From Bombyx mori (lineage: Eukaryota; Arthropoda; Insecta; Lepidoptera; Bombycidae), in contig NC_085107.1 of NCBI RefSeq assembly GCF_030269925.1, positions 7,750,001 to 7,814,000 on the forward strand: a stretch of DNA of 64,000 nucleotides, in the 5' to 3' direction. Under the pieces are notes generated by a model. That model was not told the origin of the DNA and ran no database searches. It was given only the letters and a program-made list of their open reading frames with translations. A program made the position numbers and the translations under genes. Positions within the stretch are counted from its first letter, which is position 1. Every line of letters begins with the position of its first letter. Positions 29,029-57,073 of the stretch are shown here, piece by piece.

Positions 29029-29060
29029 ATAAATAAGGGGCCTACCTCGCTGCAAATTCA
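29029..29060 (+). promoter_or_regulatory. Predicted LTR core promoter (TATA, Inr), split by jockey A
   Basis: The TATA-like ATAAATAA begins at 29029 and an initiator A lies at 29060, 31 bases downstream. In the uninterrupted LTR the initiator reads TCAGTT and a DPE-like AGACCT lies at +28 to +33 (44735-44740). Jockey insertion at 29060/29061 separates TATA from the original downstream part. This is predicted only from motif match and spacing. Confidence 0.6.
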
Positions 29061-29300
29061 CAGTTCCGATTGCATCGCCTTACAGTCCGGACGTGTTTTT
29101 ACGAGAAACTGTCGCTGCCGTCGCGATCTTGTGTCTTGAGTTTCGCTGCATTGTCGTTGTCGCATCGATCGCGGCATTGTTGCGAATTCTTGACGCACTA
29201 TCGCTGGCGTCGCGACCTTGTGTCGTAAAAGCAACTCGAACTTGTCGATTGTGCATTCGTAACGACTTCACATTATCACCCACTCATATCATTTATTAAA
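29061..29300 (+). promoter_or_regulatory. Internal promoter of jockey A (Inr + DPE)
   Basis: The element starts CAGTTCC; with that A as +1, GGACGT occupies +28 to +33 (29089-29094), matching the DPE consensus RGWYVT at the required spacing. Downstream, a segment around 29109-29135 (GTCGCTGCCGTCGCGATCTT) recurs near 29200 (ATCGCTGGCGTCGCGACCTT), a spacing of about 90 bases. This suggests monomer-like repeats. Jockey family elements are known to use internal initiator/DPE promoters. Confidence 0.65.
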
Positions 29301-29567
29301 TTTATTTATTTATTCGGCGAGCAAAACAGTCTCTTTCGAGACTAACCCCCCGCTGAGATCACCGCTTGTTGTGGCATTCTCACAACCCAGTGGGGCCCCA
29401 CCTTCCCAACTCCACCCCAATCCTAGCCGACTGCCGTTTTGACGGCAAAGGCACTCCCCCCCCTTGGAGCTGGTAAAGCTCAGGGGGTGAACTCCTACTC
29501 AGGGGACTCGCCTTTCGGCGAGTGTGCCTTAAGTCCCGGGGACGCCCCCCCCGGGCAAAAACGTAAG

Positions 29568-31184
29568 ATGGAAGAAGAACTTTTAGGGTTTCTCGGGTTA
29601 CTTGCCGAGAAGTACCCGGTGTTATCAAACCTCACGGCCGAATTCGCGGCCTACAGGGCCGCCCGCGCGAGTCCCGCCCCGCCCGCGTCCCTCGCCGCGT
29701 CATTTCGAGCCGCGCAGTCATGCCCCGCCCCCAAACCCAATTTGAGCGCACGTACGCACGTAGCGACTCACGAAGCGCCTAGCGCCAACGAAGCGCCTAA
29801 CGCACCCGCGACGTCATTCTCGCCAATATCATCCGTCGCGTCGTCCGTAATAAATAACTCAGGTTCAGACTCCGATACCGGATCGGAGATGGACTTCGAG
29901 TCCGCGACGAGCCCGCAGCCCGGAACCTCGGATGGGTTCCAAACGGTAAAACGCGGGAAAAAACGTACTCGCGCCGTGGAGTCCCGGAGCTCCACGACAA
30001 AACAAACCAAGTCAGCGACTGCCTCCCGTCCGCAGGTAGTCGTGACACCGGAGTCGGACTCCGGCCGCCGCGCAACCCCACCGCCGCGTCCCAAGCCCGC
30101 ATCCGCGCAAAAAACCGTCGCCCCGCCCCCGCTGATTCTCCAGGAGAAGTCAGCGTGGAACCGCGTCTCCCAGGCCCTTCAGGCAAACAAAATTAATTAT
30201 ACCCATGCGCGTAACGTCGCGCATGGGATTCAGATAAAGGTCGCAACGCCGGGCGACCATAGGGCCCTCTCAGCATACCTCCGAAAGGAGAACATAGGTT
30301 TCCACACCTATGCTCTTCAGGAGGACCGCGAGCTCCGCGTAGTAATACGCGGAGTTCCGAAGGAACTCGACATAGAGTATGTAAGGGAGGATCTGACCGC
30401 TCAGTCCCTCCCGATAGTAAGTGTGCACCGGATGCACAACGGCCGCGACAAAAAACCATATAACATGGTTCTAGTCGCTCTAGAACCAACCCCGGAGGCC
30501 AAGAAAAAGATCGCATGTCTCGCGACAGTATGTGGCCTATCCGGGGTTACCATTGAAGCCCCCCATAGACGTGGCACTCCCGGACAGTGCCACAGATGCC
30601 AACTATATGGCCACTCGGCTCGGAATTGCCACGCGCGCCCCCGCTGCGTGAAGTGTCTCGGCGATCACGCCACGGCAGATTGCTCGCGAGTTAGGGAAAC
30701 CGCGACCGAACCTCCAAGCTGTGTCCTATGCCTTAAGCAAGGGCACCCCGCGAATTACCGTGGATGTCCTAGGGCTCCGCGTAAACGTCCGACCCACCCA
30801 GCCCCCCGTACCGTCGGCCCAAAGACTTCGGTGCCTTCAGCACCGAAACCCGCCTTCGTACCGGCGGCGGTTCCCACCGTCTCGGCGTGGAATAAACCGC
30901 TGCCGTATACGAGGTCGGGAACACAAACCGCACCCCAGCCCCCGCTCGCGACACGTCCCGCGCCGCAGCCCCTGCTCGCACCTCCCCCCGCGCCCGCGTA
31001 CCGTCCCCCGCAACCCTCAGCCGTCAACGACTTCACGCTCGTGCGCGACTTCGTCACGGCGGTCAACTTCGACCGTCTGCGATCGTTCGCAGACGTGTTG
31101 CGAAGGGCGGTAAACCCCGAACAACGGCTCGCGGCCGCGTTCGACTACATGGACGTTTACGAGTCCGTGGCCCGTACTTTCTAA
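29568..31184 (+). CDS. Jockey A ORF1 (Gag-like nucleic-acid-binding protein, 538 aa)
   Basis: Binds element RNA and forms the ribonucleoprotein with ORF2. I chose ATG 29568 (MEEELLGF) because the matching ORF1s of B and D start at the same point and the upstream in-frame extension has no ATG. A Ser/Pro-rich middle is followed by an RRM/PRE_C2HC-like region (about residues 215-325, including VVIRGVPKELD) and three CCHC knuckles: CX2CX4HX4C (341-354), CX2CX3HX4C (360-372) and CX2CX4HX6C (385-400). The tail is Pro/Ala-rich. This is the usual ORF1 layout for jockey and X-elements. The stop lies 15 bases before the ORF2 ATG. Confidence 0.92.
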   Translation: MEEELLGFLGLLAEKYPVLSNLTAEFAAYRAARASPAPPASLAASFRAAQSCPAPKPNLSARTHVATHEAPSANEAPNAPATSFSPISSVASSVINNSGSDSDTGSEMDFESATSPQPGTSDGFQTVKRGKKRTRAVESRSSTTKQTKSATASRPQVVVTPESDSGRRATPPPRPKPASAQKTVAPPPLILQEKSAWNRVSQALQANKINYTHARNVAHGIQIKVATPGDHRALSAYLRKENIGFHTYALQEDRELRVVIRGVPKELDIEYVREDLTAQSLPIVSVHRMHNGRDKKPYNMVLVALEPTPEAKKKIACLATVCGLSGVTIEAPHRRGTPGQCHRCQLYGHSARNCHARPRCVKCLGDHATADCSRVRETATEPPSCVLCLKQGHPANYRGCPRAPRKRPTHPAPRTVGPKTSVPSAPKPAFVPAAVPTVSAWNKPLPYTRSGTQTAPQPPLATRPAPQPLLAPPPAPAYRPPQPSAVNDFTLVRDFVTAVNFDRLRSFADVLRRAVNPEQRLAAAFDYMDVYESVARTF

Positions 31185-31199
31185 AATCACCGGTAATCA

Positions 31200-34082
31200 A
31201 TGGCGCAAAACGCTAGAGAGAAACCATATTCCCTTACGTTAGCATTCTACAATGCTAACGGACTCGCGCGACAACGCGATCAAATTTACGAATTCCTCCG
31301 CGACAATCTTGTAGATATTCTGCTAGTGCAGGAGACCTGCCTGAAGCCCTCGCGTCGTGACCCGAAAGTCGCGAATTACGTCATGGTTAGGAATGACAGA
31401 CTCACCGCCTCCAAAGGCGGGACTGCCATTTACTATAGGCGGGCCCTGCACGTTGTCCCTCTCGATACCCCCTCGCTCTCACATATCGAGGCGTCAGTGT
31501 GCCGTATCTCGCTGACGGGACACCAGCCGATCGTCATCGCATCCGTCTATCTCCCCCCGGACAAGCCCCTTCTGAGCAGTGACATCGAGTCACTGTTCGG
31601 CATGGGAGACTCCGTCGTCCTGGCAGGCGATTTAAATTGCCACCACACTAGGTGGAACTGCCACAGTTCAAACATAAATGGTAGGCGTCTCGACGCGTTT
31701 ATAGACGACCTTACCTTTGAAGTAGTCGGTCCCCCAACTCCAACATGTTATCCGTATAACATCGCGCTCCGTCCGAGCACTATAGACCTGGCACTGCTGA
31801 GGAACGTAACTCTGCGCTTGCGTTCCATCGAAGCAATGTCAGAGCTCGACTCAGACCACCGACCTGTCGTTATGCAGCTCGGTCGCCCCCACAACCCAGT
31901 CACAGCTACGAGGACCATGGTGGACTGGAAGAAGCTGGGCAAATGCTTAGCCGATGCCGCTCCACCAATCCTCCCCTGCGGCCCGGATTCAACTCCCTCC
32001 CCCGAGGACACAGTCGAATCCATAAACATCATCACGGATCACATCTCTTCCGCGATCATAAGATCCTCAAAAGAAGTCGATGTGGAGGATAGCTTCCACC
32101 GCATCAGACTGTCCCCCGAACTTAGGAACCTCCTAAGAGTTAGAAACGCGGCAATCCGGGCCTACGATCAACTTCCCACGCACTCAAACCGGATTCGGAT
32201 GCGTCGTCTACAGCGGGATGTAAAATCTCGCCTAAGCGACGCCCGAAATGAGAATTGGGATAGTTACTTAGAAGGACTCGCGCCCTCTCATCAAGCATAC
32301 TGGCGACTAGCAAGGACTCTCAAGTCCGAAACTACCGCTACTATGCCTCCTCTCGTACGCCCTTCAGGCCAACCACCGGCTTTCGATGACGATGACAAGG
32401 CAGAGTTGCTGGCCGATGCACTGCAAGAGCAGTGCACCACCAGCACTCAATACGCGGACCCCGAACACACCGAGGCAGTCGACAGGGAGGTCGAGCGCAG
32501 AGCTTCCCTGCCACCCTCGGACGCGTTACCCCCCATTACCTCTGACGAAGTTAGAGAAGTAATAGACAACCTTCAACCTAAGAAGGCACCCGGCTCCGAC
32601 GGCATCCGCAACCGCGCGTTAAAACTCTTACCAGTCCAACTGATAACAATGTTGGCTACCATCTTAAATGCTGCTATGACGCACTGCATCTTTCCGGCGG
32701 TATGGAAAGAAGCAGACGTTATCGGTATACACAAGCCGGGCAAACCGAATAATGAAACCGCTAGTTACCGACCGATTAGTCTCCTCCCAGCGATAGGCAA
32801 AATTTACGAACGGCTCCTTCGGAAACGCCTCTGGGACTTCGTTACCGCGAATAAAATTCTAATAGACGAGCAGTTTGGATTCCGCGCCAAACACTCGTGC
32901 GTACAACAAGTGCACCGCCTCACGGAGCACATCTTAATAGGGCTAAATAGGCGTAAACAAATCCCGACCGGCGCCCTCTTCTTCGATGTAGCGAAGGCGT
33001 TCGACAAAGTCTGGCACAACGGTTTGATCTACAAACTGTACAACATGGGAGTGCCAGACAGACTCGTGCTCATCATACGAGACTTCTTGTCGAACCGTTC
33101 GTTTCGATATCGAGTAGAGGGAACTCGTTCTCGTCCCCGTCATCTGACTGCCGGAGTCCCGCAAGGCTCCGCACTCTCCCCGTTACTATTTAGTTTGTAT
33201 ATCAACGATATACCCCGGTCTCCGGAGACCCATCTAGCGCTCTTCGCCGATGACACGGCTATCTACTACTCGTGTAGGAAGATGTCGCTGCTTCATCGGC
33301 GACTCCAGACCGCAGTAACCACCATGGGACAGTGGTTCCGGAAGTGGCGAATAGACATTAACCCCACGAAAAGCACAGCGGTGCTATTCAAAAGGGGTCG
33401 CCCTCCGAATACCACTTCGAGCACCCCACTCCCCAGTAGGCGCGTAAACACCTCCGCCGTTAGCCCCATCACTCTCTTTGACCAGCCCATACCGTGGGCC
33501 CCGAAGGTCAAATACCTAGGCGTCACCCTCGACAGAGGGATGACACTCCGTCCCCACGTAAAAACGGTACGCGATCGCGCCGCGTTTATACTAGGACGAC
33601 TCTACCCAATGCTTTGTAGACGAAGCAAACTGTCCCTCCGTAACAAGGTAACCCTCTACAAAACTTGCATACGCCCCGTCATGACGTATGCAAGCGTAGT
33701 GTTCGCTCACGCGGCCCGCACCAACTTGAAACCCCTTCAGGTAATACAATCCCGATTCTGCAGGATAGCCGTCGGAGCACCATGGTTCCAGAGGAACGTG
33801 GACCTCCACGATGACCTGGAGCTCGACCCCGTCAGTAAGTATCTACAGTCGGCATCGCTGCGCCACTTTGAGAAGGCGGCACGACATGAGAACCCTCTTG
33901 TCGTGGCCGCCGGAAACTACATACCCGATCCTGTAGACCGTTTGGTAAACCGTCGACGTCGCCCAAAGCACGTCATCACGGATCCTCCTGATCCACTAAC
34001 GGTGCTTTTAGGCAATACAAGCACCGGTCACCGTCCTCGCCGAACCCGTCGCTTGCGACGAAGGGCTCGACGAGCGAATTAA
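31200..34082 (+). CDS. Jockey A ORF2 (endonuclease + reverse transcriptase, 960 aa)
   Basis: Nicks target DNA and copies element RNA by target-primed reverse transcription. An APE-type endonuclease fills residues 1-235: QETCLKP (catalytic Glu 44), GDLNCHHTRWN (144-154), SDHRP (218-222). The RT spans about 460-740: APGSDGI, SYRPISLLP, FGFRAKHSC, FFDVAKAFDKVWH, GVPQGSALSP and the catalytic FADD (682-685), then YLGVTLD. A basic Arg-rich C-terminus ends the protein. All key motifs are present, so the enzyme looks intact. It differs from ORF2 of C at only a few positions. Confidence 0.94.
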   Translation: MAQNAREKPYSLTLAFYNANGLARQRDQIYEFLRDNLVDILLVQETCLKPSRRDPKVANYVMVRNDRLTASKGGTAIYYRRALHVVPLDTPSLSHIEASVCRISLTGHQPIVIASVYLPPDKPLLSSDIESLFGMGDSVVLAGDLNCHHTRWNCHSSNINGRRLDAFIDDLTFEVVGPPTPTCYPYNIALRPSTIDLALLRNVTLRLRSIEAMSELDSDHRPVVMQLGRPHNPVTATRTMVDWKKLGKCLADAAPPILPCGPDSTPSPEDTVESINIITDHISSAIIRSSKEVDVEDSFHRIRLSPELRNLLRVRNAAIRAYDQLPTHSNRIRMRRLQRDVKSRLSDARNENWDSYLEGLAPSHQAYWRLARTLKSETTATMPPLVRPSGQPPAFDDDDKAELLADALQEQCTTSTQYADPEHTEAVDREVERRASLPPSDALPPITSDEVREVIDNLQPKKAPGSDGIRNRALKLLPVQLITMLATILNAAMTHCIFPAVWKEADVIGIHKPGKPNNETASYRPISLLPAIGKIYERLLRKRLWDFVTANKILIDEQFGFRAKHSCVQQVHRLTEHILIGLNRRKQIPTGALFFDVAKAFDKVWHNGLIYKLYNMGVPDRLVLIIRDFLSNRSFRYRVEGTRSRPRHLTAGVPQGSALSPLLFSLYINDIPRSPETHLALFADDTAIYYSCRKMSLLHRRLQTAVTTMGQWFRKWRIDINPTKSTAVLFKRGRPPNTTSSTPLPSRRVNTSAVSPITLFDQPIPWAPKVKYLGVTLDRGMTLRPHVKTVRDRAAFILGRLYPMLCRRSKLSLRNKVTLYKTCIRPVMTYASVVFAHAARTNLKPLQVIQSRFCRIAVGAPWFQRNVDLHDDLELDPVSKYLQSASLRHFEKAARHENPLVVAAGNYIPDPVDRLVNRRRRPKHVITDPPDPLTVLLGNTSTGHRPRRTRRLRRRARRAN

Positions 34083-34292
34083 CCCACAGACACAGCCCAC
34101 TGAGTTTCTCGCCGGATCTTCTCAGTGGGTCGCGCTTCCGATCCGGTGGTAGATTCTGCGAAGCACTGCTCTTGCTAGGGCGGTGTTAGCAATTCTCCGG
34201 TTTGAGCCCCGCGAGCTCACCTACACAAGCTAGGGTAAGCTGAAATAGCCTCTCAAGGCTATCAGCATAGGTAGGAAAAAAAAAAAAAAAAA
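34083..34292 (+). other. Jockey A 3'UTR with stem-loops and poly-A
   Basis: CCCACTGAG pairs with CTCAGTGGG around a loop containing TTTCTCGCCGGATCTT (34099-34132). Nearer the end ATAGCCT pairs with AGGCTAT (34244-34264). The same elements recur in B, C and D and, in part, in the relic at 19490-19730. Confidence 0.8.
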
Positions 34293-34303
34293 CTGCAAAT
34301 TCA

Positions 34304-34530
34304 TTCTCGCTCACGACTCGGTCGTGCGCGGACGTGCTTTCCGATCCGTGGCCCGCTTGCGAGCTGCGTCTCTGAACTCACAGCTGTGCTCGACAGTTTA
34401 GTGACCGTGAATACATTCTCGTTTACGACTCGGTTGTGTGTGAACGTGCCTTCCAATCCGTTGGTCGCTTGCGACCTACGCATCGGAATACACATTTGTG
34501 CGTGATAGTGTTGTGACCGTGAATACCCAC
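34304..34530 (+). promoter_or_regulatory. Jockey B promoter: two tandem monomers
   Basis: With +1 at the last A of the target (34303), the start reads TCATTC, an initiator match, and GGACGT sits at +28 to +33 (34330-34335). About 110 bases later the unit repeats (ATTCTCGTTTACGACTCGG), with GAACGT at the same spacing. Both monomers end with GTGACCGTGAATAC. Tandem promoter monomers in a 5'UTR are known from some mammalian L1s; here they are an observation from this sequence. Confidence 0.65.
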
Positions 34531-34863
34531 CTCATACCAACTGTCTTTTTCAAGGCAACCAATCGCTACGATCAGGCTTCCTGTGGCACTCACAGGCTAG
34601 CGATTTCCTAACCCTTCCCAAAACAACAGTCTTTTTCAAGACTAGACCCCCGCTCGCGATTCTGCCTGCTGTAGCACTATACAGCCCGAGCGGGTTCCTT
34701 TCCTTTTCCCCGCCGATTGCCGTTTTCACGGCATAGGCATTCCCCCCCCCTGCTCCTTGCTGTCCTGCAGCACAGGGGGGTTACAAATCCTATCCGGGGC
34801 CTCGCCTTTCGGCGAGTTCAACAAAAGTCCCGGGGCCGCCCCCCCTGGGCAAGAAGACCGAAG

Positions 34864-36492
34864 ATGAAAGAAGATTGTGATAGTGTCAGTGACAGTGATT
34901 TTGTCGGGTTCCTCCGGGAAAGGTACCCGACAATTAGGGCCGAATATCAGGCATATAGGGCCTCTCGTGGCAATCCCTCCCCCCCCGCGTCCGTCGCCGC
35001 GTATTTCAAACGTGCCTCGGAGGCACGCCGCGCGCCCCCCGCCGCCGCGTTAAGTTCGAGCGCACGTTCCGACGATGCGGCTCACATAGCGCCTAACGCA
35101 ACCCCCACCCCCGCGCCCGCGTCGTTTACGTCATCGCGCGCTTCGTCCGTCGCGACCTCGATCGTTTCGAGTTCAGGCTCCGATACCGAATCGGAGATGG
35201 ATTTCGAATCCGCGTCAAGCCCTCAGCCTGGAACCTCGGATGGGTTCCAAACCGTAACGCGCGGTAAAAAGCGTTCTCGCGCCGTGGAGTCCCGGAGCTC
35301 CACGACGAAGCAAACTAAATCCGCGACCGCCTCCCGCCCACAGGTAGTCGTGACACCGGAGTCGGACTCCGCTCGCCGCGTAACCCCGCCGCCGCGTCCC
35401 AAGCCCGCGCCCGCTCCTAAAGTAGCTGCCCCACCCCCGCTGATACTTCAAGAGAAGACAGCGTGGAATCGCGTGTCTCAGGCCCTTCAGGCCAACAAAA
35501 TTAATTACACCCATGCGCGTAACGTCGCGCATGGGATTCAGATAAAGGTCGCAACGCCGGGCGACCATAGGGCCCTCTCTTCATACCTCCGAAAGGAGAA
35601 CATAGGTTTCCACACCTATGCTCTTCAGGAGGACCGCGAGCTCCGCGTAGTGATACGCGGAGTCCCTAAGGAGTTAGACATCGATTACATAAAGGAGGAT
35701 CTGACCGCTCAGTCCCTCCCGTTAGTTAGCGTGCACCGGATGCACAGTGGGCGGGGCAAGCAGCCCTACAACATGATCCTGGTAGCTCTAGAACCCACCC
35801 CGGAGGCCAAAAAGAAGATCGCATGTCTCACGACAATTTGCGGCCTATCCGGGATCTCGATCGAAGCCCCCCATAAGCGTGGCACTCCCGGGCAGTGCTA
35901 CAGGTGCCAACTCTATGGCCACTCGGCGCGTAATTGCCACGCGCGCCCCCGCTGCGTGAAATGCCTCGGCGATCACGCTACGATAGATTGCGTTAGAGAT
36001 AGGGAAACCGCGACCGAACCTCCCAGCTGTGTCCTATGCCTTAAGCAAGGGCACCCCGCGAACTACCGTGGATGTCCCAGGGCTCCGCGAAAACGCCCAA
36101 CCCACCCAGCTCCGCGAACCGTCGGCCCAAAGACTTCGGCACCTTCAGTGCCGAAACCCGCCTTCGTGCCGGCTGCAGTTCCCACGGTCTCGGCGTGGAA
36201 AAAGCCGCTGCCGTATACGAAGGCGGGAACGGAAACCGCACCCCCGCCCCCGCTCGTGACACGCCCCGCGCCCCAGCCCCTGCTCGCACCTCGCCCCGCG
36301 CCCGCGTTCCGTCCCCCGCAACCCTCTACCGTCAACGACTTCGCGCTCGTGCGTGACTTCGTCACTGCGGTGAACTTCGACCGTCTGCGATCGTTCGCAG
36401 ACGCGATACGTAGGTCGGTAACCCCCGAACAGCGGCTCGCGGCCGCATTCGATCACATGGACGTCTACGAGTCCGTGTCGCGTACGTTATAA
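34864..36492 (+). CDS. Jockey B ORF1 (Gag-like protein, 542 aa)
   Basis: Open frame from ATG 34864 (MKEDCDSVSD). Same architecture as A ORF1: N-terminal acidic/serine region, PRE_C2HC-like domain (IRGVPKELDIDY), three CCHC knuckles and a Pro/Ala-rich tail. The N-terminal 150 residues differ clearly from A and C, while the central and C-terminal parts are very similar. Close to D ORF1. It is intact although its ORF2 partner is not, so it could in principle still make Gag-like protein. Confidence 0.9.
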   Translation: MKEDCDSVSDSDFVGFLRERYPTIRAEYQAYRASRGNPSPPASVAAYFKRASEARRAPPAAALSSSARSDDAAHIAPNATPTPAPASFTSSRASSVATSIVSSSGSDTESEMDFESASSPQPGTSDGFQTVTRGKKRSRAVESRSSTTKQTKSATASRPQVVVTPESDSARRVTPPPRPKPAPAPKVAAPPPLILQEKTAWNRVSQALQANKINYTHARNVAHGIQIKVATPGDHRALSSYLRKENIGFHTYALQEDRELRVVIRGVPKELDIDYIKEDLTAQSLPLVSVHRMHSGRGKQPYNMILVALEPTPEAKKKIACLTTICGLSGISIEAPHKRGTPGQCYRCQLYGHSARNCHARPRCVKCLGDHATIDCVRDRETATEPPSCVLCLKQGHPANYRGCPRAPRKRPTHPAPRTVGPKTSAPSVPKPAFVPAAVPTVSAWKKPLPYTKAGTETAPPPPLVTRPAPQPLLAPRPAPAFRPPQPSTVNDFALVRDFVTAVNFDRLRSFADAIRRSVTPEQRLAAAFDHMDVYESVSRTL

Positions 36493-36511
36493 AAATCTTT
36501 ACCGGTAACCA

Positions 36512-38772
36512 ATGGCGCAAAAAGGTAGAGAAAAACCGTATTCCCTTACGTTAGCATTCTATAATGCTAACGGACTCGCGCGGCAACGCGATCAAATTTT
36601 TGAATTCCTCCGCGATAATCTTGTAGATATTCTATTAGTGCAGGAAACCTGTCTGAAGCCCTCGCGTCGCGACCCGAAAGTCGCGAATTACGTCATGGTT
36701 AGGAATGACAGACTCACCGCCTCCAAAGGCGGGACTGCCATTTACTATAGGCGGGCCCTGCACGTTGTCCCTCTCGATACTCCCTCGCTCTCACATATCG
36801 AGGCATCAGTGTGCCGTATCTCGCTGACGGGACACCAGCCGATCGTCATCGCATCCGTTTATCTCCCCCCGGACAAGCCCCTCCTGAGCAGTGACATCGA
36901 GTCACTGTTCGGCATGGGAGACTCCGTCATCCTGGCAGGCGATTTAAATTGCCACCACACTAGGTGGAACTGCCATCGTACAAACGTTAACGGTAGGCGT
37001 CTCGACGCGTTTATAGACGACCTCACCTTTGAAATAGTCGGTCCCCCAACTTCAACATGTTATCCGTATAACATCGCGCTCCGTCCGAGCACTATAGACC
37101 TGGCATTGCTTAGGAACGTAACTCTGCGCTTGCGTTCCATCGAAGCAATGTCAGAGCTCGACTCAGACCACCGACCTGTCGTTATGCAGCTCGGTCGCCC
37201 TCACAACCCAGTCACTGTTACGAGGACCATGGTGGATTGGAATAAGCTGGGCACGTGCCTAGCCGACGCCGCTCCGCCAATCCTCCCTTACGGCCCGGAT
37301 TCGAATCCATCCCCCGAGGACACCGTCGAATCCATAAACATCATTACCGATCACATCTCTTCCGCGATCATTAGATCTTCAAAAGAAGTCGATGTGGAGG
37401 ACAGCTTCCACCGCATCAGACTGTCCCCCGATCTTAGGAATCTCTTAAGAGTTAGGAACGCGGCAATCCGGGCCTACGATCGTCTTCCCACACCTTCAAA
37501 CCGGATTCAGATGCGTCGTCTACAACGCGAAGTCCACTCCCGCTTAAGCGACGCGCGTAACGATAATTGGCATAGTTATTTAGAACAACTCGCGCCCTCC
37601 CACCAAGCATACTGGCGACTAGCTAGGACTCTCAAATCCGAAACTACCGCTACTATGCCTCCCCTCGTACGCCCTTCAGGCCAACCACCGGCATTCGATG
37701 ACGATGACAAGGCTGAGTTGCTGGCCGATGCACTGCAAGAACAGTGCACCACCAGCACTCAACACGCGGACCCCGAACACACCGAGTTAGTCGACAGGGA
37801 GGTCGAGCGCAGAGCTTCCCTGCCCCCCTCCGACGCGTTACCCCCCATTACTACTGACGAAGTTAGAGACGCGATCCACAACCTCCAACCTAGGAAGGCA
37901 CCCGGCTCCGACGGCATCCATAACCGCGCGCTAAAACTCTTGCCAGTCCAACTGATAGCAATGTTGGCTACAATTTTAAATGCCGCTATGACGCACTGCA
38001 TCTTTCCCGCGGTGTGGAAAGAAGCGAACGTTATCGGTATACATAAGCCGGGCAAACCGACAAACGAAACTTCTAGTTACCGTCCGATTAGTCTCCTCTC
38101 GACGATAGGAAAAATTTACGAACGGCTCCTTAGGAAACGCCTCTGGGATTTTGTTACCGCGAACAAAATTCTCATAGACGAACAGTTCGGATTCCGCTCT
38201 AAACACTCGTGCGTACAACAAGTGCACCGCCTCACGGAGCACATTCTGATAGGACTAAATAGGCGTAAACAAATCCCGACCGGCGCCCTCTTCTTCGACA
38301 TCGCGAAGGCGTTCGACAAAGTCTGGCACAACGGTTTAATTTACAAACTGTACAACATGGGAGTGCCAGACAGACTCGTGCTCATCATACGAGACTTCTT
38401 GTCGAACCGTTCGTTTCGATATCGAGTAGAGGGAACTCGTTGTTACTACTACTCGTGTAGGAAGATGTCGCTGCTTCATCGGCGACTCCAGATCGCAGTA
38501 GCCACCATGGGACAGTGGTTCCGGAAGTGGCGAATAGACATCAACCCCACGAAAAGCGCAGCGGTGCTCTTCAAAAGGGGTCGCCCTCCGAACATCACTT
38601 CGAGCATCCCACTCCGTAGTAGGCGCGCAAACACCTCCGCCGTTAGTCCCATCACTCTCTTTGGCCAGCCCATACCGTGGGTCTCGAAGGTCAAATATCT
38701 AGGCGTCACCCTCGACAGAGGGATGACATTCCGTCCCCATATAAAAACGGTACGCGACCGCGCCGCGTTTAT
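36512..38772 (+). pseudogene. Jockey B ORF2, 5' part (RT catalytic box deleted)
   Basis: The endonuclease domain is complete. The RT reads normally to VEGTR and then jumps to YYSCRKMS. Compared with D, 45 residues are replaced by two (near 38438-38447), a net in-frame loss of 129 bp that removes GVPQGSALSP and the FADD catalytic aspartates. The frame is then cut at 38772 by element C. It cannot make an active RT. The apparent continuation to 38926 reads into the 5'UTR of C. Confidence 0.92.
38762..38772 (+). other. Target-site duplication of element C (left)
   Basis: GCCGCGTTTAT here is repeated at 43988-43998, directly after the poly-A of C. It lies in B ORF2, which fixes C as younger than B. 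Confidence 0.92.
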
Positions 38773-39266
38773 CAGTTCCGATCGCAACACGGTTGAGCCC
38801 GGACGCGTTTTCCCGAGAAATTGTCGCTGCTGTCGCGATCGTGTGTTTGGATTGCACGACATTGTCGTCGACGTTGTTTTGCATTCCGGACGCTCTGTCG
38901 CTGGCATCGCGACCTTGAATCGGTAAAGCGTATTTCGTGTTCGTAGTTTTGCACTCGAAACGACAACTCATTTATCATCCACTCATTTCATTATTAAATT
39001 TATTTATCTATTCGGCGTGCAAAACAGTCTCTTTCGAGACTAACCCCCCGCTGAGATCACCGCTTGTTGTGGCATTCTCACAACCCAGTGGGGCCCCACC
39101 TTCCCAAACTCCACCCCAATCCTAGCCGACTGCCGTTTTCACGGCAAAGGCACTCCCCCCCCTTGGAGCTGGTAAAGCTCAGGGGGTGAACTCCTACTCA
39201 GGGGACTCGCCTTTCGGCGAGTGTGCCTTAAGTCCCGGGGACGCCCCCCCCGGGCAAAAACGTAAG

Positions 39267-40877: not shown

Positions 40878-40892
40878 AATCACCGGTAATCA

Positions 40893-44697: not shown

Positions 44698-44708
44698 CTG
44701 CAAATTCA

Positions 44709-44984: not shown

Positions 44985-44985
44985 T

Positions 44986-45006: not shown

Positions 45007-45051
45007 CATTTGAGGAAGATCGAAGAAAATTGAAGATTGAAGATTGAAGAA

Positions 45052-48000: not shown

Positions 48001-48336
48001 CGGAGCGATGATGCGCTTCAGGCAGCACGCCGTCGCCGTCTCCGTGGACATCGCGGAGATATTCATACAGATAGGCGTCCGAAGCGAGAACCGCGACGCG
48101 CTCCGGTACTTGTGGAGGGAGGACCCTTCACAAGAGCCTACAGAGTACCGGATGAAATCTATAATCTTTGGCGCGACAAGCTCACCCGCGACCGCCATCT
48201 ACGTGAAGAACGCCAACGCGGAGAAGTACCGACTGCAGTACCCGGACGCCGCCGACGCAATCGTACGCAACCACTATATGGACGATTACCTGGGAAGTTA
48301 CCGGACAAGCGAAGACGCGATCAGGATCGCAAATGA
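45052..48336 (+). pseudogene. BEL/Pao gag-protease-RT N-terminal frame
   Basis: The first ATG in good context is 45052. Residues about 35-75 carry a 20-residue tandem repeat (PRSGVTQGPPPMAA), 200-245 form a probable coiled coil, 345-500 are a DUF1759-type Gag region (YYGELPVYSG...), 553-620 carry zinc-binding cysteines (CAACQKPGHIPQDC and CFRCLRFRSRGHVC), and 655-800 are a retropepsin-like domain with DDGS (668-671). The RT begins near 885 (PRIVHDDAAK about 960). Frame homology is lost near 47942-47946; after that the frame reads nonsense to 48336 while pol continues one frame over. A one-base change in a GGG run is the simplest cause; I do not see a slippery site. Confidence 0.88.
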
Positions 48337-51013
48337 GGTGAGGGCAGTGCACCGGCAAGGCCATTTCGAGTTACGCAAATGGACCTCGAATAACGAGGAG
48401 GTACGGTGCCACATGACCGACGAGGCCCCACCTACAAGTGTGACGCTGTCCGATGGAACGGAAATAGAACGAGTACTTGGCCTGGTGTGGAGACCTGCTG
48501 AAGACGTCCTCGCCTTCAATCTGGACATGGCGCGAATCCCAAAAGAAGTCTTGGAGAGCAGCGCGCCTACGAAGAGACAGGCTCTGCGAATAATGATGTC
48601 CGTCTACGATCCCCAAGGCATCGCATCACCAGTCACTGTCGGAGCGAAGAAGATCCTGCAAGAAACGTGGCGCCGGGGGACGGCGTGGGACTCCCCCCTC
48701 GACGAAGACCTCTGCGCGATGTGGAGAGAGTGGATCGACCACTTAAGACGCCTGCGCGACGTCTCAGTGCCGCGCTGCTATCCCGGCTACTCAGACGCCG
48801 CTAACCTCCAGCTCCACACATACGTAGACGCCAGCGAGTCCGCCTACGCCGCCGCGTTATACTGGCGCGCCGAAATGCCCGACGGGGAGATCAGGACCTC
48901 CCTCGTACTCGCCAAAGCCCGAGTCGCGCCCTTGAAACTCACCTCGATACCGCGCCTCGAGCTACAAGCTGCCGTGATGGGCAGCCGCATGGCCGCGGCT
49001 GTCACAGAGGAACACGACAGAAAACCAGACGCGAGAGTGTTCTGGACAGACAGCGCCACCGTATTGACCTGGCTACGAACGGGGTCGAGGTCGTATCGAC
49101 CGTTCGTCGCTCACCGCATTGCAGCAATAGAAGAGAACAGCACTGTGGAGGAATGGCGCTGGGTCCCCACAAAGGAAAATGTCGCCGACGACGCCACAAG
49201 GGAGATACCCGTCGGCTTTGAAAGAAACCACCGCTGGTTCATAGGCCCGGAATACCTAAGACGGCATCCGGATGATTGGCCCGTACAACGGACTGCAAGA
49301 AGGGCAGAAGGTACGGGCGAAGAGAAGTGCGCAACGCTCGCCGTGAGCAGAGAGAGCCTCGGCGAAGCGATCCCGGACCCAAGACGCTTTTCAAAATGGG
49401 AAAAGTACCTGCGTGCAACGGGGCGAATACTGCAGTTCGTCGACCTATGCCGCAGAAGTCGCGAGCGCACTTATTACAAGAGGACCAGGCGGAACCCGCG
49501 TTCGGACCCGACGTGGGAGAAGAATAGAAAGAAGACGACTTCGAAGACCCCGCTGAACACACCGCGGACGCCAGAGCAAGCAGTCATTCAATGGAAGACT
49601 ATAGACGCCGACACGCTTCGACGCGCCGAGATGCTCATTTGGCGACAGAGCCAGCGGGCAGCCTTCGAGGAAGAGATTTTGACGCTCCAGCGAGGGAAAC
49701 AAGTATCCCCAGCGAGCCGACTGCGAAACTTGTCCGTAACTTACACGGACGGGATATTGAGAATAAACGGACGCATCGGCAACATAGAGGGAGCTGACGT
49801 CATCACCTCGCCTCTCGTGCTAGACGGATCCCGACGCGAAACGAGACTGATGATAGACTTCATCCATAGAAAGATGCACCACGCCGGAACCGAAGCTACG
49901 ATCGCCGAGTGCCGACAGTCGTACTGGGTCTTACGCCTACGCCCAGTGATACGGAGCGTGATCCACAATTGTCTTCCGTGTCGTATCCGCAAGGACACTC
50001 CACCGCGTCCAGCCACAGGCGACCACCCACCGAGCAGACTGGCACACCATCGGCGACCATTCACATACGTGGGCCTCGATTACTTCGGGCCCTATCAAGT
50101 TACCACCGGCAGAAGCACCCAGAAGCACTACGTGGCCATCTTCACATGTCTCACTACGCGTGCGGTACATTTAGAACCGGCAGCGAGCCTCAGCACGGAC
50201 TCAGCGGTGATGGCACTCCGGCGCATGATCGCGCGCCGGGGAGCTCCGACGGAAATATGGAGCGACAACGGCACCAACTTACGAGGTGCCGACAAGGAGC
50301 TGCGCCAAGCTTTGGACAAGGCGACCGAGCATGAAGCAAGCTTAAGGCTTATACAATGGCGCTTCATCCCACCGGGCGCGCCTTTCATGGGCGGCGCCTG
50401 GGAGAGAATGGTGCGGGCGGTAAAGGCCGTGCTCTCGGCCACGGAACAGCCGAGGCACCCGACGCCCGAAATATTTCATACTCTGCTAGCAGAAGCAGAA
50501 TTCACCGTGAACAGCCGACCTCTCACTCACGTATCGGTGAGCGCCGACGATCCCGACCCTCTAACGCCAAACCACTTCCTGCTGGGAGGCCCGGCGCGAG
50601 TCCCCGTGCCGGGCAAGTTTTACGACGCCGACCTCATAGGGCGCGCACACTGGCGCGCAGCTCAACGTCTGGCAGATGTGTTCTGGAGTCGCTGGCTCCG
50701 GGAGTACCTGCCCGACCTGCAGAACCGGCGGGAGCCCCACAGCCGCGGGCCCGCCCTGAAGATAGGCGACGTCGTGATAATAGCAGACGGAACGCTCCCA
50801 CGGAACACCTGGCCACGAGGGATCATCCAGGAGGTTTACCCGGGGGCCGACGGCATCACACGAGTGGTCGACGTGCGCACCGCCGGCGGTATCCTGCGAC
50901 GCCCGGCAAAGAAGATCATCGTGCTGCCCACGATGACCGCCGCTCACCAGGGAGGATGCAGCGACGTGAACGACGCTGCACGGCGGGAGGATGTTCGCGA
51001 CGGACATAGATAG
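48008..51013 (+). pseudogene. BEL/Pao RT-RNase H-integrase frame
   Basis: Starts mid-RT (first Met of the open frame, not a true start). RT motif A VDIAEIFIQ and catalytic YMDDY (90-94) are present, then a Pao-type connection (about 160-260, YDPQGIASP), RNase H (D274, E318, D348, D395), an integrase zinc finger (H620, H624, C655, C658), the integrase core with D691, D753 and E799, and a DUF5641 C-terminus. The frame runs 22 bases into the 3' LTR. All catalytic residues are kept, so the frame break is the only clear defect. Confidence 0.9.
50981..50991 (+). other. Polypurine tract of the BEL element
   Basis: CGGCGGGAGGA immediately precedes the TGTTCG of the 3' LTR. Purine-rich and in the expected place for plus-strand priming. 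Confidence 0.6.
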
Positions 51014-51489
51014 TTTTAAAAATAGATAGAAAACATAGTTGTTCGCGACGGACATAGATAGTTTTAAAAATAGATAGAAAACATAGTAAATATACGTTAA
51101 AATGGCTGTAAAATAATAGAAATGTCCGTAACAGATAAATGAATAGTATGTTAAAATAAGTTAAAGAATAAATAGTTATAATAAGGAAATGTCCGTAAAT
51201 AGATAATATGTTAAAAATAGGTTAACATAAATAGAGAACGATGTAAATAGAAATAAGTAATTTGTAAATATTTGTTTGAAAATAAAGATTGGTCCTCGTG
51301 GTCTTTAATTTGGCGTGGGAACGCAGGAGCGAGTCACAATACGGGCAACTAATAGAGCGACTAGGCAAACAATAGGCGAGCGAGGCGGCCGAGAGAACAA
51401 TGGACGCCCACCGTGCTCGGACTCATAATAGCACTGGCCGAGTGCGCGTGGGCGACCATAAATAAGGGGCCTACCTCGCTGCAAATTCA
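50992..51489 (+). repeat. BEL 3' LTR, first part
   Basis: Appears identical to 28563-29060, including the 48-bp duplication (50992-51087), the TATA-like ATAAATAA (51458-51465) and the start-site A at 51489. Interrupted here by jockey D. Confidence 0.9.
51458..51489 (+). promoter_or_regulatory. Predicted 3' LTR core promoter joined to jockey D
   Basis: TATA-like at 51458, initiator A at 51489 (spacing 31), now reading TCATTC into jockey D, with jockey GGACGT at +28 (51516-51521). TATA, initiator and DPE all fit one start nucleotide across the junction. Prediction only. Confidence 0.55.
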
Positions 51490-52043
51490 TTCTCGCTCAC
51501 GACTCGGTCGTGCGCGGACGTGCTTTCCGATCCGTGGCCCGCTTGCGAGCTGCGTCTCTGAACTCACAGTTGTGCTCGACAGTGTAGTGACCGTGAATAC
51601 ATCGTGCTTACAATTCAGTAGTGCGGACGTGCCGATCCGTTGGTCGCTTGCGATTTGCGTCTCGGAGTCCATTTTTGTGCGCTAAAGTGTTGTAACCGCG
51701 AACCCACCCTTTACCAACTGCCTTTTTCAAGGCAAAACCAATCGCTACGATCAGGCTTCCTGTGGCACTCACAGGCTAGCGATTTCCTAACCTTTCCCAA
51801 AACAACAGTCTTTTTCAAGACTAGACCCCCGCTCGCGATTCTGCCTGCTGTAGCACTATACAGCCCGAGCGGGTTCCTTTCCTTTTCCCCGCCGATTGCC
51901 GTTTTCACGGCATAGGCATTCCCCCCCCCCTGCTCCTTGCTGTCCTGCAGCACAGGGGGGTTACAAATCCTATCCGGGGCCTCGCCTTTCGGCGAGTTCA
52001 ACAAAAGTCCCGGGGCCGCCCCCCCCGGGCAAGAAGACCGAAG

Positions 52044-53669
52044 ATGCAGAACAGTGAAAGTGTCAGTGACAGTGATTTTGTCGGGTTCCTCCGGGAAAGG
52101 TACCCGACAATTAGGGCCGAATATTTAGCCTATAGGGCCTCCCGTGGCAATCCCTCCCCCCCCGCGTCCGTCGCCGCGTATTTCAACCGTGCCTCGGAGG
52201 CACGACGCGCGCCCCCCGCCGCCGCGTTAATTTCGAGCGCACGTTCCGACGATGCGACTCACGAAGCGCCTAGCGCTACCCCCACCCCCGCGCCCGCGTC
52301 GATTACGTCATCGCTCGTTTCGTCCGTCGCGACCTCCGTAGTCTCAAGTTCAGGCTCCGATACGGAATCGGAGATGGACTTTGAATCCGCGTCCAGCCCT
52401 CAGCCCGGAACCTCGGATGGTTTCCAAACAGTGACACGTGGAAAGAAGCGTACTCGCGCCGTGGAGTCCCGGAACTCCACGACAAAACAGACGAAATCCG
52501 CGTCCGCCTCTCGACCGAAAGTAGTAGTTACACCGGAGTCGGACTCCGCGCGCCGCGTAACCCCACCGCCGCGTCCCAAGCCCGCGCCCGCTCCCAAAGT
52601 AGCTGCCCCGCCCCCGCTGATACTTCAAGAGAAGACAGCGTGGAATCGCGTGTCCCAGGCCCTTCAGGCTAATAAAATTAACTACACCCATGCGCGTAAC
52701 GTCGCGCATGGGATTCAGATCAAGGTCGCAACGCCGGGCGACCATAGGGCCCTCTCAGCATACCTCCGAAAGGAGAACATAGGTTTCCACACCTATGCTC
52801 TTCAGGAGGACCGCGAGCTCCGCGTAGTAATACGCGGAGTCCCTAAGGAGCTAGAAATAGACTACATTAAGGAGGATCTGACCGCTCAGGCCCTCCCGAT
52901 AGTTAGTGTGCACCGGATGCACAGCGGGCGGGGCAAACAGCCCTATAATATGATACTCGTGGCGTTAGAACCCACCCCGGAGGCCAAAAAGAAGATCGCA
53001 TGTCTCACGACAATTTGCGGCCTATCCGGGATCTCGATCGAAGCCCCCCATAAGCGTGGCACTCCCGGGCAGTGCTACAGGTGCCAACTCTATGGCCACT
53101 CGGCGCGTAATTGCCACGCGCGCCCCCGCTGCGTGAAATGCCTCGGCGATCACGCTACATTAGATTGCGTTAGAGATAGGGAAACCGCGACCGAACCTCC
53201 CAGCTGTGTCCTATGCCTTAAGCAAGGGCACCCCGCGAACTACCGTGGATGTCCCAGGGCTCCGCGAAAACGTCTAACCCACCCAGCTCCGCGAACCGTC
53301 GGCCCAAAGACTTCGGCACCTTCAGTGCCGAAACCCGCCTTCGTGCCGGCTGCAGTTCCCACGGTCTCGGCGTGGAAAAAGCCGCTGCCGTATACGAAGG
53401 CGGGAACGGAAACCGCACCCCCGCCCCCGCTCGTGACACGCCCCGCGCCCCAGCCCCTGCTCGCACCTCGCCCCGCGCCCGCGTTCCGTCCCCCGCAACC
53501 CTCTGCCGTCAACGACTTCGCGCTCGTGCGTGACTTCGTCACCGCGGTCAACTTCGACCGTCTGCGATCGTTCGCAGACGCGATACGTAGGTCGGTAACC
53601 CCCGAACAGCGGCTCGCGGCCGCTTTCGATCACATGGACGTCTACGAGTCCGTGTCGCGTACGTTATAA
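52044..53669 (+). CDS. Jockey D ORF1 (Gag-like protein, 541 aa)
   Basis: ATG 52044 (MQNSESVSDSDFVGFL). The region after residue 10 aligns with B ORF1 (RERYPTIRAEY). PRE_C2HC-like domain with IRGVPKELEIDY and three CCHC knuckles as in the other copies. The start context and position match those of B. Confidence 0.92.
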   Translation: MQNSESVSDSDFVGFLRERYPTIRAEYLAYRASRGNPSPPASVAAYFNRASEARRAPPAAALISSARSDDATHEAPSATPTPAPASITSSLVSSVATSVVSSSGSDTESEMDFESASSPQPGTSDGFQTVTRGKKRTRAVESRNSTTKQTKSASASRPKVVVTPESDSARRVTPPPRPKPAPAPKVAAPPPLILQEKTAWNRVSQALQANKINYTHARNVAHGIQIKVATPGDHRALSAYLRKENIGFHTYALQEDRELRVVIRGVPKELEIDYIKEDLTAQALPIVSVHRMHSGRGKQPYNMILVALEPTPEAKKKIACLTTICGLSGISIEAPHKRGTPGQCYRCQLYGHSARNCHARPRCVKCLGDHATLDCVRDRETATEPPSCVLCLKQGHPANYRGCPRAPRKRLTHPAPRTVGPKTSAPSVPKPAFVPAAVPTVSAWKKPLPYTKAGTETAPPPPLVTRPAPQPLLAPRPAPAFRPPQPSAVNDFALVRDFVTAVNFDRLRSFADAIRRSVTPEQRLAAAFDHMDVYESVSRTL

Positions 53670-53687
53670 AATCTTTACCGGTAACCA

Positions 53688-56570
53688 ATGGCGCAAAAAG
53701 GTAGAGAAAAACCGTATTCCCTTACGTTAGCATTCTATAATGCTAACGGACTCGCGCGGCAACGCGATCAAATTTTTGAATTCCTCCGCGATAATCTTGT
53801 AGATATTCTATTAGTGCAGGAAACCTGTCTGAAGCCCTCGCGTCGCGACCCGAAAGTCGCGAATTACGTCATGGTTAGGAATGACAGACTCACCGCCTCC
53901 AAAGGCGGGACTGCCATTTACTATAGGCGGGCCCTGCACGTTGTCCCTCTCGATACTCCCTCGCTCTCACATATCGAGGCGTCAGTGTGCCGTATCTCGC
54001 TGACGGGACACCAGCCGATCGTCATCGCATCCGTTTATCTCCCCCCGGACAAGCCCCTTCTGAGCAGTGACATCGAGTCACTGTTCGGCATGGGAGACTC
54101 TGTCATCCTGGCAGGCGATTTAAATTGCCACCACACTAGGTGGAACTGCCATCGTACAAACGTTAACGGTAGGCGTCTCGACGCGTTTATAGACGACCTC
54201 ACCTTTGAAATAGTCGGTCCCCCAACTCCAACATGTTATCCGTATAACATCGCGCTCCGTCCGAGCACTATAGACCTGGCATTGCTTAGGAACGTAACTC
54301 TGCGCTTGCGTTCCATCGAAGCAATGTCAGAGCTCGACTCAGACCACCGACCTGTCGTTATGCAGCTCGGTCGCCCTCACAACCCAGTCACTGTTACGAG
54401 GACCATGGTGGATTGGAATAAGCTGGGCACGTGCCTAGCCGACGCCGCTCCGCCAATCCTCCCTTACGGCCCGGATTCGAATCCATCCCCCGAGGACACC
54501 GTCGAATCCATAAACATCATTACCGATCATATCTCTTCCGCGATCATTAGATCTTCTAAAGAAGTCGATGTGGAGGACAGCTTCCACCGCATCAGACTGT
54601 CCCCCGATCTTAGGAATCTCTTAAGAGTTAGGAACGCGGCAATCCGGGCCTACGATCGTCTTCCCACGCATTCAAACCGGATTCAGATGCGTCGTCTACA
54701 ACGCGAAGTCCACTCCCGCTTAAGCGACGCGCGTAACGATAATTGGCATAGTTATTTAGAACAACTCGCGCCCTCCCACCAAGCATACTGGCGACTAGCT
54801 AGGACTCTCAAATCCGAAACTACCGCTACTATGCCTCCCCTCTTACGCCCTTCAGGCCAACCACCGGCATTCGATGACGATGACAAGGCTGAGCTGCTGG
54901 CCGATGCACTGCAAGAGCAGTGCACCACCAGCACTCAACACGCGGACCCCGAACACACCGAGTTAGTCGACAGGGAGGTCGAGCGCAGAGCTTCCCTGCC
55001 GCCCTCGGACGCGTTACCCCCCATTACCGCTGACGAAGTTAGAGACGCGATCCACAACCTCCAACCTAGGAAGGCACCAGGCTCCGACGGCATCCACAAC
55101 CGCGCGCTAAAATTTTTGCCAGTCCAACTGATAGCAATGTTGGCTACAATTTTAAATGCCGCTATGACGCACTGCATCTTTCCCGCGGTGTGGAAAGAAG
55201 CGGACGTTATCGGTATACATAAGCCGGGCAAACCGAGAAACGAAACTTCTAGTTACCGTCCGATTAGTCTCCTCTCGACGATAGGAAAAATTTACGAACG
55301 TCTCCTTAGAAAACGCCTCTGGGATTTTGTTACCGCGAACAAAATTCTCATAGACGAACAGTTCGGATTCCGCTCAAAACACTCGTGCGTACAACAAGTG
55401 CACCGCCTCACGGAGCACATTCTGATAGGGCTAAATAGGCGTAAACAAATCCCGACCGGCGCCCTCTTCTTCGACATCGCGAAGGCGTTCGACAAAGTCT
55501 GGCACAACGGTTTAATTTACAAACTGTACAACATGGGAGTGCCAGACAGACTCGTGCTCATCATACGAGACTTCTTGTCGAACCGTTCGTTTCGATATCG
55601 AGTAGAGGGAACTCGTTCTCGTCCCCGTCAACTGACTGCCGGAGTCCCGCAAGGCTCCGCGCTCTCCCCGTTATTATTTAGTTTGTATATCAATGATATA
55701 CCCCGGTCTCCGGAGACCCACCTAGCGCTCTTCGCCGATGACACGGCTATCTACTACTCGTGTAGGAAGATGTCGCTGCTTCATCGGCGACTCCAGATCG
55801 CAGTAGCCACCATGGGACAGTGGTTCCGGAAGTGGCGAATAGACATTAACCCCACGAAAAGCGCAGCGGTGCTCTTCAAAAGGGGTCGCCCTCCGAACAT
55901 CACTTCGAGCATCCCACTCCGTAGTAGGCGCGCAAACACCTCCGCCGTTAGTCCCATCACTCTCTTTGGCCAGCCCATTCCGTGGGTCTCGAAGGTCAAA
56001 TATCTAGGCGTCACCCTCGACAGAGGGATGACATTCCGTCCCCATATAAAAACGGTACGCGACCGCGCCGCGTTTATTCTAGGACGACTCTATCCAATGC
56101 TTTGTAGTCGAAGCAAACTGTCCCTCCGCAATAAGGTAACTCTCTACAAAACTTGTATACGCCCCGTCATGACGTATGCAAGCGTAGTGTTCGCTCACGC
56201 AGCCCGCACCAACTTGAAATCCCTTCAGGTTATTCAATCACGATTCTGCAGGATAGCCGTCGGAGCGCCTTGGTTCCTTAGGAATGTGGATCTCCACGAC
56301 GACCTGGAGCTCGACTCTTTTAGTAAGTATCTACAGTCGGCATCGCTGCGCCATTTTGAGAAGGCGGCACGACATGAGAACCCTCTCATCGTAGCCGCTG
56401 GAAATTACATACCCGACCCAGTAGACCGAATGGTAAACCGTCGACGTCGCCCAAAGCACGTCATTACGGATCCTCCTGATCCATTAACGGTGCTTTTAGG
56501 CACCACAAGCACCGGTCACCGTCCTCGTCGAACCCGTCGCTTGCGACGAAGGGCTCGACGAGCGAACTAA
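53688..56570 (+). CDS. Jockey D ORF2 (endonuclease + RT, 960 aa)
   Basis: Intact version of the B-type protein: endonuclease motifs QETCLKP, GDLNCHHTRWN, SDHRP; RT motifs through GVPQGSALSP and FADD at 682-685; basic C-terminus RRLRRRARRAN. It differs from B at a few residues (for example PTP/PTS, HSN/PSN, KFL/KLL, ADV/ANV), apart from the B deletion. Confidence 0.94.
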   Translation: MAQKGREKPYSLTLAFYNANGLARQRDQIFEFLRDNLVDILLVQETCLKPSRRDPKVANYVMVRNDRLTASKGGTAIYYRRALHVVPLDTPSLSHIEASVCRISLTGHQPIVIASVYLPPDKPLLSSDIESLFGMGDSVILAGDLNCHHTRWNCHRTNVNGRRLDAFIDDLTFEIVGPPTPTCYPYNIALRPSTIDLALLRNVTLRLRSIEAMSELDSDHRPVVMQLGRPHNPVTVTRTMVDWNKLGTCLADAAPPILPYGPDSNPSPEDTVESINIITDHISSAIIRSSKEVDVEDSFHRIRLSPDLRNLLRVRNAAIRAYDRLPTHSNRIQMRRLQREVHSRLSDARNDNWHSYLEQLAPSHQAYWRLARTLKSETTATMPPLLRPSGQPPAFDDDDKAELLADALQEQCTTSTQHADPEHTELVDREVERRASLPPSDALPPITADEVRDAIHNLQPRKAPGSDGIHNRALKFLPVQLIAMLATILNAAMTHCIFPAVWKEADVIGIHKPGKPRNETSSYRPISLLSTIGKIYERLLRKRLWDFVTANKILIDEQFGFRSKHSCVQQVHRLTEHILIGLNRRKQIPTGALFFDIAKAFDKVWHNGLIYKLYNMGVPDRLVLIIRDFLSNRSFRYRVEGTRSRPRQLTAGVPQGSALSPLLFSLYINDIPRSPETHLALFADDTAIYYSCRKMSLLHRRLQIAVATMGQWFRKWRIDINPTKSAAVLFKRGRPPNITSSIPLRSRRANTSAVSPITLFGQPIPWVSKVKYLGVTLDRGMTFRPHIKTVRDRAAFILGRLYPMLCSRSKLSLRNKVTLYKTCIRPVMTYASVVFAHAARTNLKSLQVIQSRFCRIAVGAPWFLRNVDLHDDLELDSFSKYLQSASLRHFEKAARHENPLIVAAGNYIPDPVDRMVNRRRRPKHVITDPPDPLTVLLGTTSTGHRPRRTRRLRRRARRAN

Positions 56571-56781
56571 CCCATAGACACAGCCCACTGAGTTTCTCGC
56601 CGGATCTTCTCAGTGGGTCGCGTTTCCGATCCGGTGGTAGATTCTGCGAAGCACTGCTCTTGCTAGGGTCAGTGTTAGCAACTCTCCGGTTGAGCCCCGC
56701 GAGCTCACCTACTAACGTTAGGGTGAAGCTGAAATAGCCTCTCAAGGCTATCAGCATAGGTAGGGTAAAAAAAAAAAAAAA
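56571..56781 (+). other. Jockey D 3'UTR and poly-A
   Basis: Stem-loops as in A (near 56583-56617 and 56735-56753), then TAGGGT plus poly-A. Confidence 0.82.
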
Positions 56782-56792
56782 CTGCAAATTCA

Positions 56793-57068: not shown

Positions 57069-57073
57069 GTAAT

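Follow-up and report, generated by a model that had tools for sequence, protein, structure and literature searches.

In Bombyx mori, one position within the long terminal repeat (LTR) of a BEL/Pao retrotransposon is a genome-wide insertion hotspot for long interspersed nuclear elements (LINEs), and jockey-like LINEs inserted at other sites are enriched for a TATA box at a fixed spacing upstream of the junction. The site lies in the stretch analysed here, a window of 64,000 nt (NC_085107.1, labelled contig C1, 7750001-7814000) in the 461.7-Mb, 30-contig assembly that formed the search space. An earlier note on this DNA had described three insertions at a single word in both LTRs of one element. 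The hotspot proved larger than it reported, and the site is shared with a second, distantly related LINE group, of which one subfamily is found almost nowhere else. The explanation that best fits the whole, to which we give a probability of roughly 0.6, is that LINE nicking is steered to TATA-type RNA polymerase II (Pol II) starts, whereby the LINEs would capture promoters, with the LTR hotspot lying at a presumed Pol II start.

The LTR insertion hotspot

The host element spans 28563-57068 of the window and is bordered by the 5-bp target duplication GTAAT (28558-28562 and 57069-57073, read directly). Alignment showed its paired LTRs to be identical over both the 498-bp left parts and the 276-bp right parts (Table 1), and each LTR opens with a tandem duplication of a 48-bp unit (28563-28658 and 50992-51087). 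Pfam matches in the interior include Peptidase_A17 (5.3e-46) and Integrase_H2C2 (3.3e-07); no RVT match was reported in the scan of the two interior open reading frames (ORFs). The Pao-type peptidase/integrase region, paired LTRs and 5-bp duplication identify the host as a BEL/Pao LTR retrotransposon, a group on which PMC3118150 gives background.

The target word, CTGCAAATTCA, occurs five times in the window, in both LTRs (chance expectation 0.03), and a word search confirmed the copies that the earlier note had placed there. LINE copies A, B and D each begin immediately after this word and have it behind them. The 5' LTR holds A and then B, the first directly upstream of the second with the word at 34293-34303 between them, as had been noticed before, and the 3' LTR holds D. 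A fourth copy, C, splits B and is bordered by a separate 11-bp duplication, GCCGCGTTTAT; the point where it inserted is in ORF2 of B, 33 nt behind TATAAAAA. Pfam scanning, which took in A, C and D, found an Exo_endo_phos endonuclease and RVT_1 in ORF2 of all three, with no RNase H match in these ORFs, and PRE_C2HC in ORF1 of A and D. On this domain content (a gag-like ORF1, and an ORF2 with an apurinic/apyrimidinic-type endonuclease (APE) and a reverse transcriptase (RT) without an RNase H match), and following the first reading of the window, A-D are classed as probable jockey-like LINEs. A PDB search gave RT homology to LINE-1 and R2, and the matches in a protein search were mostly unnamed proteins.

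The copies are not alike. A belongs to another subfamily than B and D, in agreement with the earlier note: A and D are ~90% identical over the last 4.6 kb, and their first part is mostly too dissimilar to align. C resembles A at 98% identity. Between B and D, identity is 96% across the first 4.1 kb, with 143 mismatches and 10 gap openings, and ~99% over two 3' stretches (11 mismatches in ~1 kb), which amounts to 154 mismatches plus gaps over ~5.2 kb, whereas their 774 bp of LTR show no difference. Poly(A) lengths and 3' tails also vary between the window copies. A short, diverged fragment of the jockey 3' region (~81-84% identity) lies on the minus strand at 19621-19758.

Across the genome, CTGCAAATTCA was counted 217 + 187 times and the reversed word 92 + 96 times. 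A 23-nt left-junction pattern, allowing up to 3 mismatches, found 104 + 73 = 177 LTR sites, and its reversed control found 0; insertions that destroy the word go uncounted, because the pattern requires an intact left word. The right side was read at 100 of the 177 sites, all exact matches (this set reaches into contig C29, and further exact sites are possible). Among these 100, 53 were empty and 47 interrupted. The interrupted sites hold 23 inserts of the jockey-like family or its close relatives (22 share 78-100% nucleotide identity with A or D; the other was recognised from its 5' end), 22 of a second LINE group (18 assigned by nucleotide match, 4 by 5'-end sequence) and 2 (L090 and L210) that are unassigned; all 45 assigned inserts stand in the LTR sense orientation. 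Thirty-nine distinct 17-mers follow the site at the 47 interrupted loci. The earlier note had named many independent loci filled at this word as the outcome that would support it, which is what the census found, and the outcome it had set against this, a site filled at this locus alone, is not the case. Misassembly was rejected as an explanation, as filled sites are spread over 23 of the 30 contigs.

Inserts adjoin the word directly except at L100, where foreign sequence begins 9 bp further on, and at L096, which has a complex junction with filler. Some begin at the full-length start, some have short additions at the 5' end and others are 5'-truncated at many different points, all marks of separate target-primed events. 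Twelve right-hand junctions show an intact word behind the LINE 3' end, but these are not independent evidence because they were located by searching for that word. The right LTR part was intact in 48 of 49 empty LTRs examined, the sole exception (L086) having a second-group LINE ~117 bp downstream of the site. The left part was unbroken over at least 263 bp directly before the site in 30 of 30 loci with longer flanks (77-100% identity), a result that covers the aligned portion only, the outer 35-155 bp of several left parts having failed to align.

Two observations on individual loci may be recorded here. Contig C29 (11.2 Mb) carries at least 15 exact sites (15 of the 100 read), far above the expectation from its length; our guess is that it is a repeat-rich sex chromosome. 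At L021/L040, an inverted jockey 3' end interrupts, near nt 628, a D-type copy that had inserted at the LTR word.

The second LINE group is distant from the first. Its ORF2 shares 32% identity with that of D over 882 aligned residues, and its 3' end consists of GGGGGTACGACGACCC with short tails, in contrast to the long poly(A) of the jockey-like copies. The start of its ORF2 and its RT motifs, read from the sequence, are those of an APE/RT LINE. The 5' end of one subfamily, the L049-type, has 16 genome matches, 14 of which are at the LTR site: 12 (5 + 7) were read directly there, some with a one-base variant of the word or with its last 1-2 bases replaced, and 2 more are stacked behind another LINE at the word, with identical flanks that may represent one duplicated locus. 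Only 2 of the 16 lie elsewhere, one of them a 65-bp match. This subfamily is therefore nearly confined to the LTR site, as a strictly site-specific element would be. The L039-type 5' end was compared with the 100 exact LTR sites: of 40 hits scored from 118 candidates, 3 fell on one of them, a figure that measures overlap with those sites.

Table 1. Features of the BEL/Pao element and its LINE insertions in the window
Feature	Positions	Strand	Basis
BEL/Pao 5' LTR, left part, through target word	28563-29060	+	identity to 50992-51489; GTAAT outside
TATA-like CATAAATAA; first base to last base of target word, 33 nt inclusive	29028-29036	+	direct reading
Target word CTGCAAATTCA in 5' LTR, preceding A	29050-29060	+	word search, direct reading
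LINE copy A, jockey-like, A subfamily, ORF1 and ORF2 open	29061-34292	+	ORFs, alignment, Pfam
Target word between A and B; duplication common to the stack	34293-34303	+	word search, direct reading
LINE copy B, 5' part, D subfamily	34304-38772	+	alignment
TATAAAAA within B; C junction 33 nt inclusive downstream	38740-38747	+	self-comparison of window
GCCGCGTTTAT, left duplication of C	38762-38772	+	self-comparison of window
LINE copy C, A subfamily, nested in B	38773-43987	+	alignment
GCCGCGTTTAT, right duplication of C	43988-43998	+	self-comparison of window
LINE copy B, 3' part	43999-44697	+	alignment
Target word behind B	44698-44708	+	word search, direct reading
5' LTR, right part	44709-44984	+	identity to 56793-57068
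BEL/Pao coding region, two overlapping ORFs: DUF1759; Peptidase_A17, Integrase_H2C2, DUF5641	45037-51013	+	ORF list, Pfam
3' LTR, left part; target word at 51479-51489	50992-51489	+	alignment, direct reading
LINE copy D, D subfamily, ORF1 and ORF2 open	51490-56781	+	ORFs, alignment, Pfam
Target word behind D	56782-56792	+	word search, direct reading
3' LTR, right part	56793-57068	+	alignment, direct reading

Dispersed jockey-like copies and TATA spacing

The distribution of full-length jockey-like 5' ends was sampled by searching with 120 bp from the start of D, for which 40 hits were scored among 291 candidates, all full matches, and of A, for which 40 matches were scored among 106 candidates. 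Flanks on the 5' side were read for 38 of the D-type and 39 of the A-type copies, the remaining three (D and A of the window, and L040) all being at the LTR. Among the 40 D-type ends, 5 were at the LTR, 4 were stacked on a LINE that itself occupies the word or a variant form and 31 were elsewhere; of the 40 A-type ends, 1 was at the LTR, 33 were elsewhere and 6 were stacked on LINEs inserted at different words, one of them (L232) ~40 bp behind the preceding LINE. The LTR target is a minute part of the genome, yet it takes 10 of the 80 sampled insertions, at the site itself or stacked on it (9 of 40 D-type, 1 of 40 A-type). With these proportions the jockey-like family is not strictly site-specific, and a simple preference of this family for CTGCAAATTCA was rejected, as C and 64 of the 80 sampled copies are inserted elsewhere. 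The contig that contains the window also has, at C1:5927153-5937898, three D-type copies (L154-L156) arranged head to tail, ~5.3 kb apart, in one LTR with a variant word.

The 3' flanks of 20 dispersed copies were examined, 13 of them D-type copies taken in list order and 7 picked partly for a visible TATA. A duplication of 10-11 nt was found in 13 of the 20 (8 of the 13 unchosen copies) and one of 14 nt in 1. No obvious common word was found at the nick among the dispersed jockey-like copies. A CA just before the D-type query was considered as an initiator signal and rejected, as the duplications place this CA mostly in the element's own 5' end.

In the LTR, CATAAATA begins at 29028, 33 before the junction, and the TATA of C (38740) is likewise at 33. 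When 51 sites including C were aligned on the ends of their duplications, the first T of TATAWA fell at 31-33 in 11 of them, other offsets averaging 0.15, and none of 20,000 within-sequence rotations reached 11. A single shift per subfamily is the fairer test, because the duplications in the 51-site alignment were partly fetched for TATA sites. Over all dispersed sites, a set that retains three pairs of related flanks, TATAWA was found at 31-33 in 11 of 64 (1.08 expected; 0 of 20,000 rotations) and at 30-38 in 15 of 64 (2.99 expected; 0 of 20,000). The D-type sites alone gave 7 of 31 at 31-33 (0.44 expected; 0 of 20,000), and the first A-type set gave 4 of 19 at 30-38 (1.04 expected; 243 of 20,000). 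In a validation fixed before retrieval, with the range 30-38 derived from that first set, 19 further A-type flanks (five of them stacked behind a LINE) gave 4 against 0.76 expected (72 of 20,000). These statistics cover jockey-family flanks.

At 11 of the 64 dispersed sites the insertion lies at a fixed distance, 31-33, from what may be a core promoter element, as in retroelements guided by promoters or transcription factors such as Ty3 and TRE5-A; these sites are putative promoters. The earlier suggestion of a preference for this site, or for the promoter architecture there, was supported and refined: the hotspot and a TATA ~32 nt upstream agree with it, the jockey-like family is not strictly site-specific, and only a minority of its sites have a strict TATA. 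Two pairs of flanks, L173/L228 and L167/L174, are related within each pair and have boxes of the TATAAATA or AATAAATA type, as if further repeated promoters had been hit more than once.

What may guide the nick

A TATA box at about -31 would place the junction at the expected Pol II start. The LTR junction splits TTCA/GTT, which resembles TCAGT, the insect initiator. A bottom-strand nick ~10 nt upstream of the junction would account for duplications of 10-11 bp and set the first nucleotide of the LINE at the expected transcription start, in promoter orientation. The region that is opened at Pol II initiation is like the duplicated stretch in place and size, a match which suggests that a promoter-bound factor or the opened DNA may guide the endonuclease. 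Because the spacing recurs at unrelated sites, the jockey-like family probably reads promoter architecture and not the LTR word, with the TATA box read perhaps via TBP or the preinitiation complex. As judged from the sequence, the LTR site would then be a real transcription start, the LTR would drive LINE RNA and a guiding factor would direct the nick. The TATA box and target word remain upstream after each insertion and the site is renewed, so that copies can stack; this would account for A-B, L154-L156, L120, L121, L200 and L201.

A more far-reaching version can be put forward only tentatively. It holds that a group of LINEs integrates via Pol II initiation complexes, with nicks at the two edges of the opened region, such that the duplication would be the opened stretch itself, and that full-length inserts capture a promoter and are transcribed from nucleotide 1. 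The preferred hosts would be LTR elements, which offer strong TATA promoters in many copies, and one lineage would have narrowed to a single LTR.

Several findings weigh against steering to Pol II starts. A strict TATAWA at 30-38 is absent from 49 of 64 dispersed sites, and TATA accounts at most for part of the targeting rule. Opposite-strand TATA likewise concentrates, if less tightly, at 32-42, in part because TATATA-like motifs match both strands. The TATA used by C lies within ORF2 of another LINE and is unlikely to be a genuine promoter; 6 of the 20 dispersed copies showed no duplication in the 3'-flank stretch examined; and the off-target L049-type flanks, L207 and L209, have no clear TATA at the expected place. 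Moreover, these data are also explained if TATA DNA is recognised directly.

Such direct recognition is a possible, if rather doubtful, alternative: the endonuclease of each LINE, together with other domains of the element, would read a sequence that includes the LTR word and, some two helical turns further upstream, an A/T-rich block, with no transcription factor involved, and two lineages would have converged on one site or inherited it. The concentration of 14 of 16 matches of one subfamily at one sequence, as in classical site-specific LINEs, speaks for this alternative, as does the use by C of a TATA inside coding DNA. However, the dispersed jockey-like copies have the TATA spacing in common and no obvious word at the nick, and two LINE groups with 32% ORF2 identity adjoin the same word; steering by promoter architecture remains preferred.

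Survivorship is highly improbable. It supposes that insertion is broad and that copies at the LTR are kept or over-represented, as the LTR drives them or as LTRs are harmless places to land, and it can draw on the general argument that selection would purge insertions elsewhere in genes. It does not explain why one point within a 774-bp LTR is used when 48 of 49 right parts are intact and 30 of 30 left parts unbroken over at least the 263 bp nearest the site, nor why 5'-truncated copies lie at the same point.

The earlier note had already given evidence against simple conversion, and multiplication of one or a few insertions by LTR-LTR conversion, or by BEL retrotransposition of a filled LTR, is barely credible and was rejected as the main cause: a 5' addition is common to L107 and L108 (C26), and another such addition to L117 and L211 (C29), but under conversion B and D should match as closely as their identical LTRs do, many junctions and truncation points in two LINE groups argue against it, and the one shared junction at most filled loci that it requires was not seen. 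L107 and L108 lie ~12.3 kb apart and both start with AACC before the LINE, a possible instance of BEL copying or conversion.

Known systems and significance

Known LINE targets are rDNA, telomeres, tRNA genes and some transposons. The site-specific LINEs of the R1 clade in insects include TRAS, SART and R1, and in Xenopus Tx1L inserts in Tx1D. The LINEs described here are like those of the R1 clade in their APE endonuclease, their exact junctions and the strict target of one subfamily; they differ in that the target is neither rDNA nor telomere.

The closest known systems in their working appear to be TRE5-A of Dictyostelium and Ty3. According to PMC5911963, the ORF1 protein of TRE5-A interacts with TBP and other parts of TFIIIB, and Ty3 integrates at RNA polymerase III (Pol III) starts with promoter-bound factors. 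TRE5-A is likewise an APE-endonuclease LINE aimed at transcription units, but its targets are Pol III tRNA genes, and it inserts ~40-54 bp upstream of them in opposite orientation, whereas the present LINEs would use TATA-type, presumed Pol II starts at a fixed spacing and in the same orientation. With Ty3 they would have in common integration at a transcription start with promoter-bound factors; Ty3 differs as an LTR element that uses an integrase at Pol III genes, in contrast to a LINE that inserts by target-primed reverse transcription. PMC8869645 names a class of LINEs whose targets are other transposable elements, and a mobile element is the target here also; the present case is distinguished by a presumed LTR start region as target and by the fact that two distant groups of LINEs use it, of which one inserts elsewhere too. 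Among the matches listed from the open-access literature, titles and abstract openings held no LINE aimed at TATA-type starts or at a BEL LTR, and passages of PMC3747384 contained nothing on such a case.

If steering to TATA-type starts is correct, targeting at a fixed distance from them would be a Pol II counterpart of Ty3 and TRE5-A, and would explain a LINE that lives on borrowed promoters. It would also provide a natural insertion site that renews itself and is replicated dozens of times within one genome, at which the question of what guides APE-type LINE endonucleases becomes directly testable.

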